Shown piece by piece: positions 1,498-55,713 of a stretch of DNA of 64,000 nt. The stretch lies in NCBI RefSeq assembly GCF_028693135.1, contig NZ_JAQUVZ010000004.1, forward strand, positions 1 to 64,000. The letters run 5' to 3'. The notes beneath the pieces were generated by a model, which saw nothing but the letters and a program-made list of their open reading frames with translations, ran no database searches and was not told the origin of the DNA. Positions within the stretch are counted from its first letter, which is position 1; the number at the start of each line of letters is the position of its first letter. Source of the DNA: Methanosarcina sp. GTDB taxonomy: Archaea; Halobacteriota; Methanosarcinia; Methanosarcinales; Methanosarcinaceae. Both the position numbers and the translations under genes were made by a program.

Positions 1498-1524
1498 ATT
1501 TTCATCGCATTTACGAGGTTAAAC

Positions 1525-2703
1525 ATGTTTCAGATAGGAGAAGCATTAATGGGGCAGGGCGCAGAACTTGCCCATGTTGATTTGATGATAGGAGACAAGG
1601 GAGGTCCCGTAGGGCAGGCTTTTGCAAACGGCCTGACCCAGCTTTCAGCCGGACACACCCCTCTTCTGTCCGTTATAAGGCCAAACCTGCCTGCAAAACC
1701 TTCAACCCTTATTATCCCGAAGGTTACTGTAAAGAATATGGAGCAGGCATCAAGAATTTTCGGGCCTGCCCAGTCAGCAGTTGCAAAGGCAGTAGCAGAC
1801 TCAGTAGAAGAAGGCGTGATCTCAAAGGATCAGGCTGAAGACCTTGTCATTGTAGCTAGTGTCTTTATCCACCCTGATGCCAAGGACTATAGCAAGATCT
1901 ACAGGTACAACTACGGCGCCACAAAACTTGCGCTCAAGAGAGCACTTGAAGGCTTCCCGGACATCAACACTGTGCTTGAGGAGAGCAACAAGTCCACCCA
2001 CGCTATCATGGGCTTTAAAGTCATCAGGCTCTGGGATCCACCTTACCTGCAGATTGCTTTTGATAACCCGAACCTCGAGTTCGTGCTTTCGGCTATTTCC
2101 CAGATCCCGAACAGTGACCATGTCATTATCGAAGCAGGTACCCCCCTTATCAAGCGCTACGGCATGGACGTGATTTCCAAGATCAGGGATGTCAAGCCCG
2201 ATGCCTTTATTGTTGCTGACTTAAAGACCCTGGATACCGGAAACCTTGAAGCAAGAATGGTTGCAGACGCTGCAGGCGATGCAATTGTGGTTTCAGCCCT
2301 TGCTCCGATCAGCACCATTGACAAGCTCATTGAAGAAGCCCACAAGACAGGCATCTATGCGGTCATGGATACTCTCAACCAGCCCGACCCGATTTCGGTC
2401 TTAAAGCAGCTCAAGGTCATGCCTGATGTCATTGAACTCCACCGTGGAATCGATATCGAAGGCACAGAACATGCCTGGGGCAATATTGACGATATCAAGA
2501 AGGTTGCTCCAAAGGCCCTGGTTGCAGTTGCAGGTGGAGTCCGTCTCGACAAGGTGCCGATAGCCCTTAGCCAGGGTGCTGATATCCTTGTGGTCGGACG
2601 TGCTATCACCAACGCAAAGGACATAAGGGATATGGCTGAACAGTTCATTAACAGCCTTAACAAACCTGAAATAGACCAGTTCAGAGTCATGACTGACTTC
2701 TGA
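1525..2703 (+). CDS. fae-hps: Bifunctional formaldehyde-activating enzyme / 3-hexulose-6-phosphate synthase
   Basis: Residues 1 to about 165 are Fae, which condenses formaldehyde with tetrahydromethanopterin; the conserved His sits in [15 protein letters not shown]. Residues of about 170-392 are Hps, an orotidine-decarboxylase-superfamily barrel with the metal and catalytic motif ADLKTLD and a phosphate-binding VAGGVR...VVGRAI. In methanogens the fusion links ribulose-5-phosphate formation by the reversed RuMP route with recycling of the released formaldehyde. Its 392 residues match known archaeal fusions. ATG 1525 follows ACGAGGTTAAAC, with a weak Shine-Dalgarno. tpiA follows in the same direction. 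Confidence 0.96.
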
Positions 2704-52390: not shown

Positions 52391-53131
52391 TATTCAGGGC
52401 GTGGTCCATTTCATAGGCTTCAAGGTTCATGTGAGTCTCAAACTCTCAAATTTTTTTAGATTAAAATCCCCCTGTTCGTTTAATATCTTTGGTCTATTTT
52501 TGTGAATGTCCCCCTCCCCTACTATAATCCCCACATCTGTAAGCATCTGTAATTATTCAGATGCATCCTGCCCAATAGCCGCTTTCTCCCTTTATAAAAG
52601 CTCCACCCTCAGTTATTTTTATGTGTAAGGTACGTGGATATATTTTATTGATTTGAAGCTAAATGAGCCTGTTTTTCAATTCGGCACAAGCAAGTAATTT
52701 AACTTTACTGAATGAACAAAATCGTAATCAATAGGGTTAATTCTTTTGGTTATCCGGCTGGTTGCTCGGCTGGTTGCTCGGCTGGCTGCCCGTTTTTTAT
52801 ATCCCTTTCTTCTGCATATGTTTTCTTTAAAAATAAACTAAACTAAACTGTTTATTGATACTGTTTTTTAGTTTTGTACAAGCATATCGGCGATTTTATA
52901 TTTCTTATTTATTTTTTAAATATTTGTATACGTTTCCAGTTTAATTACTTTTAAATACCACTTCTTACATAATTAGATACCAATACAGTATCAAATAATT
53001 TGTTCAGGCTTACCGGGGAAAGGGGGTAGCCTTGAGCTCGAGATTTGGGGGTATTATCCGGGCTTCAGGCAGTTAATTTCGTGCAGTCACTGCGACGGAA
53101 GTCCTCCTTTTTCCTTTTGTATGAGGTTACA
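52391..53131. other. Non-coding region before the pilin paralogs
   Basis: About 740 bp, A+T-rich, without a credible gene. It contains the 12-bp triplication at 52755-52790 and a G-rich stretch (about 53010-53060). The promoter for the pilin genes is probably in the A+T-rich part before 53000. Confidence 0.45.
52755..52790. repeat. Three tandem 12-bp repeats
   Basis: CGGCTGGTTGCT at 52755-52766 and 52767-52778, then CGGCTGGCTGCC at 52779-52790. It is an isolated GC-rich triplet repeat in an A+T-rich spacer. Non-coding as far as can be seen. Confidence 0.9.
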
Positions 53132-53176
53132 ATGTCTGAGATTTGTATGTGTAGGGGGTATTTATCTGGTATTTAA
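53132..53176 (+). CDS. Leader ORF overlapping the first pilin gene
   Basis: ATG 53132, preceded by GAGGTTACA, opens a 14-codon frame ending in Ser-Gly-Ile and TAA at 53174-53176. It overlaps the CTG start of the pilin gene (53166) by eleven bases in a different frame. A leader in the same relative frame, also ending Ser-Gly-Ile, precedes the second paralog. This suggests translational coupling or frameshifting. Short, so uncertain. Confidence 0.4.
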   Translation: MSEICMCRGYLSGI

Positions 53177-54221
53177 AAAATTAAAAAGAAACTCCAGCGG
53201 AGTTTCATCTGTCCTGGGTGAGATTCTTATTACAGGGGTTTTTGTTCTTTCGCTCGGTTCGATATTTGTATTTGTGAATTCTATGGACAAACCTGTCGAT
53301 TCTACTCACCTCGGGGTTGAAGAATGGGTAGACGCTCCTTCTGATATCATTTACCTGCTTCACGCCGGAGGAGAGCCTATTGATACAAAAGATCTGAAAA
53401 TCAATGTCAATATAGATGGGAAAACCTATGTCTATCCCTCAGCCAACATTTCCGCAAACCTGGGTGGAAAAAGCTTCTGGGAACTTTCAGATGTCATTGA
53501 AATCAACACAAGTAAGGAGTGGGGCGTCAGCGTTCCAGACGAAGATGATCTGGTTGTGAAAGTGGTCGATACGGATTCAAGGGAAGTTCTCCCTAAATGC
53601 CGGATCAGCTTCACGCCTAAAGATCCATTAGCTCCTGTTAACTTTACGATAATTAACGATACAGTAGTTCCAAACGGTACCTTTATCAGCAGTTTTACGG
53701 TGCTCGGGGCCGCAATAACTAATGGTGAGAACGGTTATGACCTGATGGTGACTACCCAGCTCAAGGTTGGAGACGACATTTTTGCTCCATGGGGAAATTA
53801 CAACCTGGCGGTGACTGGCAATGTCAATGACAAAACCACTCATTCATGGAACCCTACATCCACCTATCCGGCAGGTACACCTGTAACGATAGGCGGCAAG
53901 TCCTGGAACCATCTAAATACCGGCTTAAATTATACTCTCGATAGCTCCTGGGCTCAGCATATGGAGGTTAGTTCTACGGGTGATTCTAAATATTTAATAG
54001 TACTCAGGAACGGAGACGCTGTCCCTACAATCAAAGGTTTCTCGAACCAGGACTCCATTGCCAAGTTTGTAAAGGGTTATGTTAAAGACGACAAGATCTT
54101 ACTGGAGGATAACGAGGCTATCTTCCTGTTTGAGCTTGGAGTGACAGATCTGACCAGTGACGCAGCTGATTTCCAGGACCTGGTAATTCTGATGGAAATA
54201 AATCCAGCGCCTGCAAGTTAA
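53166..54221 (+). CDS. Archaeal type IV pilin-like protein, copy 1 (CTG start)
   Basis: 351 residues if started at CTG 53166, seven bases after AGGGGG. A short basic N-terminus (VFKKLKRNSSG) followed by VSSVLGEILITGVFVLSLGS is the archaeal pilin N-terminal domain, with a prepilin-peptidase-type site after Gly. The rest is extracellular, beta-rich, with a repeated core (LGAAITNGENGYDLMVTTQL). No ATG, GTG or TTG lies between the Shine-Dalgarno and the signal. The ATG at 53121 is in frame, but the upstream frame is not shared with the paralog. Probably surface adhesin or pilin. Confidence 0.82.
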   Translation: MVFKKLKRNSSGVSSVLGEILITGVFVLSLGSIFVFVNSMDKPVDSTHLGVEEWVDAPSDIIYLLHAGGEPIDTKDLKINVNIDGKTYVYPSANISANLGGKSFWELSDVIEINTSKEWGVSVPDEDDLVVKVVDTDSREVLPKCRISFTPKDPLAPVNFTIINDTVVPNGTFISSFTVLGAAITNGENGYDLMVTTQLKVGDDIFAPWGNYNLAVTGNVNDKTTHSWNPTSTYPAGTPVTIGGKSWNHLNTGLNYTLDSSWAQHMEVSSTGDSKYLIVLRNGDAVPTIKGFSNQDSIAKFVKGYVKDDKILLEDNEAIFLFELGVTDLTSDAADFQDLVILMEINPAPAS

Positions 54222-54263
54222 TCCTGCAGAAACTGATATTTTTCGTCAAAAAACTCAGGGTCA

Positions 54264-54305
54264 GAGCCTGAAACCGAACCATTCTCGGTTTTGGTTTTCA
54301 GGCTC
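54264..54305 (+). terminator. Long hairpin after pilin copy 1
   Basis: GAGCCTGAAA (54264-54273) pairs with TTTCAGGCTC (54296-54305), with CCGA/TCGG inside. A near-copy follows the second paralog (55505-55547), so it was duplicated with the gene. There is no U-tract after it, so it may be an mRNA stabiliser rather than a classical terminator. Confidence 0.5.
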
Positions 54306-54331
54306 AGATCAAATAATCCGGGGAGATAATA

Positions 54332-54415
54332 ATGGGTCAATTGAATCTGACTTTTCGTTTAGGACGACAAAGCCTGAGGGTTGTATTTTCAGGGGGTATT
54401 TATTCTGGTATTTGA
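54332..54415 (+). CDS. Leader ORF overlapping the second pilin gene
   Basis: ATG 54332 follows GGGGAGATAATA (good Shine-Dalgarno, spacing six). It opens a 27-codon frame that ends Ser-Gly-Ile-TGA at 54413-54415, overlapping the CTG start at 54405 by eleven bases. The relative frame is the same as for the first paralog. Its peptide starts MGQLNLTFRLGRQSL. The coupling role is inference. Confidence 0.45.
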   Translation: MGQLNLTFRLGRQSLRVVFSGGIYSGI

Positions 54416-55454
54416 AAAATTAAAAAGAAACTCCAGCGGAGTTTCGTCTGTCCTGGGTGAGGTTCTTATCGCAGGGGTTTTTGTTCTTTCGCTCGGTTCG
54501 CTATTTGTATTTGTGAATTCTATTGACACGCCTGTCGATTCCGCTCATCTCGCGGTTGAGGAATGGATTGACACTTCTTCCGATACCATTTACCTGCATC
54601 ACGTTGGAGGAGAGCCAATTGATACAAAAGACCTGAAAATCAATGTCAATATACGTGGTACAAACCATATGTATCCCTCAGCCAATATTTCTGAAAACCT
54701 GGGTGGAAAAAGCTTCTGGGATCTTTCAGATGTCATTGAAATCAACACCAGTGAGGAGTGGGGCATCAGTATTCTAAACGAAAAGGATGTAACTGTGAAA
54801 TTGATTAATTCGGATTCAAGGGAAATTATTAACCCCAAATACAGGGTCTGCCTCAATCCGGAATCTCCTGCACCTTCAATTGACTTTGATATCGCGGGAA
54901 AATCAGTAGTTCCAAACGGTGCCTTTATCAGCGGTTTTACGGTGCTCGGGGCCGCAATTACTAATGGCGCGGGTGGCGATGACCTGATGGTGACTACCCG
55001 GCTCAAGGTTGGAAACGATACTTTTGATCCCTGGGGAGATTACAACTTGGCAGTGACTGGCAATGTCAATGACCACACTACTCATTCATGGAACCTCCCA
55101 GCCACCTATCCGGCAGGTACGCCAGTTTCGATAAGTGGGAAGTCCTGGAATCTCATCAAGTCCCCCAATTCTCTCGATAGCTCATGGGCTGAGAGGATAG
55201 AGGTTAGTTCTATGGATGATTCTGAGTATTTGATTGTACTCAGGAACGGAGACGCTGTCCCTCAAATAAAAGGTTTCTCGGACCAGAATTCCATTACCGA
55301 TTTTGTAGATGCCTATGTTGAAGATGACAAGATCGTATTGGAGGAGAATGAGGTTATCTTCCTGTTTGAGCTGGGGAACGGGCCCCTTACAGACCCATCT
55401 TCTGATTTCCAGGACCTTGTAATTCTGATGGAGATAGATTCGGCACCTGCCTAA
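54405..55454 (+). CDS. Archaeal type IV pilin-like protein, copy 2 (CTG start)
   Basis: 349 residues from CTG 54405, eight bases after AGGGGG. N-terminus VFEKLKRNSSGVSSVLGEVL again gives a pilin signal. It is about two-thirds identical to copy 1 throughout, by eye. One base more than copy 1 lies between the Shine-Dalgarno and CTG, so upstream frames are out of register while the coding frame is kept. That argues the start is at or after CTG. The in-frame TTG 54381 lies too close to its upstream GAGGG to be a good start. Confidence 0.83.
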   Translation: MVFEKLKRNSSGVSSVLGEVLIAGVFVLSLGSLFVFVNSIDTPVDSAHLAVEEWIDTSSDTIYLHHVGGEPIDTKDLKINVNIRGTNHMYPSANISENLGGKSFWDLSDVIEINTSEEWGISILNEKDVTVKLINSDSREIINPKYRVCLNPESPAPSIDFDIAGKSVVPNGAFISGFTVLGAAITNGAGGDDLMVTTRLKVGNDTFDPWGDYNLAVTGNVNDHTTHSWNLPATYPAGTPVSISGKSWNLIKSPNSLDSSWAERIEVSSMDDSEYLIVLRNGDAVPQIKGFSDQNSITDFVDAYVEDDKIVLEENEVIFLFELGNGPLTDPSSDFQDLVILMEIDSAPA

Positions 55455-55504
55455 GTTTTTTCAGTGAAATCAGGGGTCTTGCGTCAAACAGAAACTCAAG
55501 ATCA

Positions 55505-55547
55505 GAGCCTGAAACCGGGCCATTTCTCGGCTTTGGTTTTCGGGCTC
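55505..55547 (+). terminator. Long hairpin after pilin copy 2
   Basis: GAGCCTGAAA (55505-55514) pairs with TTTTCGGGCTC (55537-55547). It is a diverged copy of the hairpin after the first pilin gene. Both are followed by CAAATAATCCGGGGAGATAAT, so the duplicated unit extends through about 55572. Confidence 0.5.
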
Positions 55548-55713
55548 GGATCAAATAATCCGGGGAGATAATATTGATTTCCTCCGCTTTTTTTCATTAT
55601 GGGGATGGAAAAGCCTGGTTTTGTAATCTGAATAAGGCGGTACCCTATGAAAAGCTTACAGGAACCGTTCATCTCTGGAGGTTCCCGTTTTTCTACGGAG
55701 AGCGGGAAACTGT

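Follow-up and report, generated by a model that had tools for sequence, protein, structure and literature searches.

In the window (the whole 64,000-nucleotide stretch of Methanosarcina DNA analyzed here), two tandem pilin genes are best explained by plain Shine-Dalgarno-led initiation at CTG, without coupling to a leader ORF; from sequence comparison, we give this reading a probability of about 0.83. The CTG is most likely a TTG-derived start that would have been inherited through several duplications and species splits. The position of the codon, its conservation, its TTG counterpart, the spacing to the Shine-Dalgarno sequence, and purifying selection on the genes were established by comparison.

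Two tandem pilin genes

The reading frame of copy 1 runs through 54218 (stop codon, 54219-54221) and that of copy 2 through 55451 (stop codon, 55452-55454). The products, each of about 350 residues, are 71% identical. Both match Pilin_N PF07790 (E values of 3e-16 and 5e-17; 60.5 and 62.9 bits, with a cut-off of 25.2), which classifies them by sequence as archaeal type IV pilin-like proteins. From the proposed start, both genes read CTG GTA TTT [AG]AA AAA TTA AAA AGA AAC TCC AGC and continue into the GVSSVLGE signal (L-V-F-[KE]-K-L-K-R-N-S-S/GVSSVLGE). A short basic leader and a hydrophobic segment are seen in both sequences. As the preliminary description of this DNA had stated, AGGGGG followed by 7 or 8 bases and CTG GTA TTT occurs in both copies (CTG at 53166 and 54405), and no ATG, GTG, or TTG separates CTG from the pilin signal in either copy. 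Feature coordinates are collected in Table 1.

Table 1. Features of the tandem pilin locus (positions in the window)
Feature	Position	Strand	Remark
Pilin copy 1	53166..54221	+	351 codons, counted from CTG, and a stop; Pilin_N PF07790
Pilin copy 2	54405..55454	+	349 codons, counted from CTG, and a stop; Pilin_N PF07790
Proposed CTG start, copy 1	53166..53168	+	Same alignment column: CTG in five homologs, TTG in two
Proposed CTG start, copy 2	54405..54407	+	From the alignment of homologs
Shine-Dalgarno AGGGGG, copy 1	53153..53158	+	7 bases before CTG
Shine-Dalgarno AGGGGG, copy 2	54391..54396	+	8 bases before CTG
In-frame ATG and 15-codon extension, copy 1	53121..53165	+	Judged accidental; no ribosome-binding site
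Leader ORF 1 (MSEICMCRGYLSGI, then stop)	53132..53176	+	Overlaps copy 1 by 11 bases; frame not conserved
Leader ORF 2 (27 aa)	54332..54415	+	Starts at the junction behind the downstream hairpin of copy 1; not homologous to leader ORF 1

The large C-terminal part of the proteins had no Pfam or NCBIfam match, and the structure prediction was too poor for use (pLDDT of 51.7). Residues ∼157 to 350, the C-terminal half, match Methanosarcina proteins of ∼270 to 500 aa at 45 to 51% identity (L014, L017, L021, and L022). Since the pilin half is not matched in these proteins, the C-terminal half may constitute a domain in its own right.

A candidate start column shared by homologs

A genus-wide protein search and a DNA search, for which the 5' region was the query, identified the homologs. 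Close homologs occur in genomes G008 (three tandem copies), G011 (one copy, interrupted), G001, and G007. When the 5' regions of the eight homologs were aligned, a single column held CTG in six (two in the window, three in G008, and one in G011) and TTG in two (G001 and G007); the codon is therefore either conserved or swapped only for another start codon, and the conserved pilin signal follows it in all eight. The CTG copies span three Methanosarcina genomes (G000, G008, and G011). G001 and G007 carry the two next-closest orthologs, in which the TTG lies at the same distance from the ribosome-binding site (AGGGAG and AGGAGG, respectively) and is followed by one extra codon (AAT ATA versus GTA). 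The preliminary description had suggested that translation starts at CTG and had named an ATG, GTG, or TTG at this site in close relatives as a refutation. Taken literally, such a TTG was found, yet it marks the site as a start; the proposed start itself is well supported by CTG in all six of the nearest copies, TTG in the two next orthologs, and the best ribosome-binding site of the region.

Variable alignment columns amounted to 35 of 56 before the ribosome-binding site, 3 of 15 in the Shine-Dalgarno sequence and spacer, 0 of 3 at CTG, and 6 of 54 in the first coding part. The conserved stretch therefore starts with the ribosome-binding site. Under neutrality, three columns would stay unchanged across the six CTG copies ∼19% of the time, so the invariance of CTG is by itself weak evidence; judged from the alignment, the case draws its strength from the TTG that relatives have in this column, from the spacing, and from the closed frames.

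All CTG copies probably derive from one change, i.e., one evolutionary event. A decayed pilin remnant in genome G009 (L104, about 1500-1600, minus strand) reads TAGGGGGATTTACT CTG AAT ATT; its CTG is followed by AAT, as TTG is in the orthologs, a state intermediate between the two forms. Because of this combination, the remnant suggests that the T-to-C change preceded the one-codon loss; in G009, the change may postdate the decay.

Other Pilin_N paralogs of the genus have a likely start (TTG, ATG, or GTG) ∼11 to 16 codons before the same signal, and a paralog in the same genome as the window (L085) begins with ATG GTA. Two further candidates were rejected. The ATT directly before CTG in copy 2 and in the second G008 copy (G008b) is not conserved, being TAT, ACT, or AAT elsewhere. 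In a different Pilin_N subfamily (L064, G021), a CTG also considered as a start has an in-frame ATG seven codons earlier with its own GAGG at 7 bases.

Some flanking and repeat features were also observed. One and the same hairpin-like segment (AGAGCCTGAAACC...GGTTTTCAGGCTC...AAATAATCCGGGGAGATAATA) lies behind each pilin copy of the window (54251-54340 and 55492-55576). In G008, a longer 5' region of its own precedes each copy; copy 2 of the window lacks such a region and may for that reason rely on transcription from copy 1. In the first G008 copy (L038:4370-4510), a Pro-Thr-Glu-Thr unit (ACAGAGACACCA) is repeated about ten times in the linker from the pilin domain to the C-terminal part; these repeats are absent from the other copies.

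Shine-Dalgarno sequence and spacing

AGGGGG is present in all six CTG copies, while the spacer and remaining leader vary. With the following T, it pairs with the 3' end of 16S rRNA in the AGGAGG register with one G-U pair. The one-base difference between the window copies is a deletion in the copy 1 spacer, and the 5' alignment shows that this indel was tolerated with the coding frame maintained. Long ORFs of the window likewise have spacings of 7 to 8 bases most often, in a table that selects starts by score and is only a rough yardstick.

For the eight genes, every ATG, GTG, and TTG within 60 bases upstream was scored against a presumed sequence of the 16S 3' end. The main CTG or TTG start had the top score in 8/8 genes, with 15 to 17 for CTG copies, 12 to 16 for TTG copies, and at most 13 for all other candidate starts. 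The motif AGGGGG-N6..9-CTG matched five times in the window, compared to 2.3 matches expected by chance; it is unremarkable alone, and what exceeds chance is its cross-species conservation. The case therefore rests on the comparison of homologs. RNA folding around the start gave no common structure hiding it, and an Rfam search of the upstream regions returned nothing credible.

In-frame codons upstream of CTG

Canonical codons do exist in frame farther upstream, namely, ATG at 53121 in copy 1 and TTG at 54381 in copy 2. Were these the true starts, the proteins would carry extensions of 15 and 8 residues, and the G008 and G011 genes would start at a TTG at −24 and read through a TAG as pyrrolysine. 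That TTG is in frame in 5/6 CTG copies. TAG can encode pyrrolysine in Methanosarcina, and PylS is encoded in the genome, so an in-frame TAG is no absolute barrier in the genus. Accordingly, the TAG at −15 in G008a, G008c, and G011, which lies within TAGGGGG and leaves GGG GTA TTT ACT/AAT CTG, was not taken as proof that the frame is closed.

Initiation at these codons nevertheless appears improbable. For both ATG 53121 and TTG 54381, a suitably spaced ribosome-binding site is lacking (Shine-Dalgarno scores of 5 to 8 versus 15 to 17 for CTG), and a strong Shine-Dalgarno sequence would be left unused inside the coding region. The spacer indel puts the copies in different upstream frames; ATG 53121 is in frame only through the deletion in copy 1, and its counterpart in G008a and G011 falls in the frame that ends Ser-Gly-Ile-stop. 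No ribosome-binding site precedes the TTG at −24, which copy 1 has in a different frame and which G001 and G007 lack. In-frame upstream starts of the remaining copies are not common to all. Thus, with pyrrolysine as a caveat on TAG, the homologous copies share no ATG, GTG, or TTG able to serve as a start.

Overlapping leader ORFs

The preliminary description had also reported a short leader ORF at each gene, both ending Ser-Gly-Ile-stop in the same relative frame, and had proposed that initiation is coupled to leader translation or that ribosomes shift frame from the leader. Both ORFs exist and end 11 bases into their pilin gene. Their frames agree solely past the indel, where the DNA is homologous; before it they differ (AGG GGG TAT TTA in copy 1 and TCA GGG GGT ATT TAT in copy 2), and the starts are unrelated. 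The common ending arises because both ORFs run into homologous, conserved DNA, TCTGGTATTTRA.

For the pilin start to depend on termination-reinitiation at, or frameshifting from, a leader is, in our estimation, highly improbable. In most copies, an ORF of some kind does overlap the start: the Ser-Gly-Ile-stop frame (frame 2) ends just after CTG in both window copies, G008a, G008b, and G011, and frame 1 ends further in for G008a, G008c, and G011. The leader ATG at 53132 also has GAGGT 5 bases away. However, the ORF is not conserved among orthologs in frame, overlap, start codon, or length, nor are the ribosome-binding sites of the leader starts conserved among the copies. The counterpart of leader ORF 1 in G008a, G008c, and G011 lies in the other frame and ends deeper inside the gene, while the Ser-Gly-Ile-stop frame has no start codon in G001, stops just before CTG in G008c, or begins at a different start. 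In addition, the pilin gene has a strong Shine-Dalgarno sequence of its own. Because leader frame and start are not conserved, a conserved coupling or frameshift is unlikely. Of what the proposed alignment of orthologous loci was to examine, CTG and the spacing proved conserved; the leader was absent or ended before CTG in some copies. From these comparisons, the overlapping ORFs are probably incidental, and an unconserved influence on expression is conceivable.

Purifying selection

Among intact CTG copies, dN/dS was 0.31 to 0.51, with 0.31 for copy 1 versus its nearest intact ortholog. Such values point to genes that evolve fast but are kept under purifying selection. These data bear on the possibility that the start codon was lost and that the genes are decaying, little-translated pseudogenes. 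CTG is a poor start, the G011 gene is interrupted, and only a remnant is left in G009; reduced function in some copies is possible. As an account of the family, though, decay is extremely unlikely given five intact copies with zero stops, four pairs with fewer amino acid changes than the minimum of 500 neutral simulations, and the conserved Shine-Dalgarno sequence, spacing, and CTG.

Proposed mode of initiation

Under direct CTG initiation, AGGGGGT 7 to 8 bases upstream would place the translation start directly at CTG. Initiator tRNA would read this codon, such that the protein begins with methionine (M-V-F-K-K-L-K-R-N-S-S-G), and class III signal peptidase would then remove the short basic leader. 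Because the leader is cut off, the first residue would be irrelevant to the mature pilin. One transition would have turned TTG into CTG in the ancestor of three Methanosarcina lineages and been retained since. Low initiation efficiency, partly compensated by the strong Shine-Dalgarno sequence, would give modest expression. We infer the direction of change, the roles of initiator tRNA and methionine, peptidase cleavage, and the expression level from this scheme.

CTG might also be selected rather than just tolerated. A weak start with a strong Shine-Dalgarno sequence would keep the duplicated pilins at low, tunable levels, possibly modulated by the variable overlapping leader ORFs, as a regulatory feature conserved in this Methanosarcina clade. 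We regard this idea as doubtful.

Comparison with known systems

Like other archaeal type IV pilins (PF07790), the window proteins have a short basic leader, the GVSSVLGE signal, a hydrophobic segment, and a start position that matches those of paralogs; they differ in their CTG start and in the unmatched C-terminal part. The starts named in a review of archaeal initiation are AUG, GUG, and UUG; the term CUG was not found there (PMC7531240). There is precedent within the genus, as Ribo-seq of Methanosarcina mazei assigned CTG starts to 5% of detected unannotated small ORFs (PMC11456600). Those ORFs are unannotated and encode at most 70 aa, whereas the present case concerns a conserved family of ∼350 aa with TTG orthologs.

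A study of 36 genome groups of prokaryotes counted no more than four switches to a CUG start; one was from UUG, among 2,468 ancestral UUG starts (PMC5622118). As in those switches, a start codon was replaced by CTG here, but the pilin CTG has persisted in six copies across duplications and species splits. Non-AUG starts tend toward stronger Shine-Dalgarno sequences (PMC5622118), a trend that fits the higher scores of the CTG copies relative to their TTG orthologs. CTG initiation is thus a rare but known kind, of which the pilin pair is, at the sequence level, a comparative example that is well documented and concerns a full-size protein.

Such cases matter for annotation as well. Standard gene finders usually permit only ATG, GTG, and TTG as starts; consequently, genes that begin with CTG tend to receive wrong annotated N termini or to be lost. 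The pilin pair belongs to a genetically workable genus and provides a clean case in which CTG initiation can be tested on a conserved, full-size archaeal protein; the TTG orthologs serve as natural controls.
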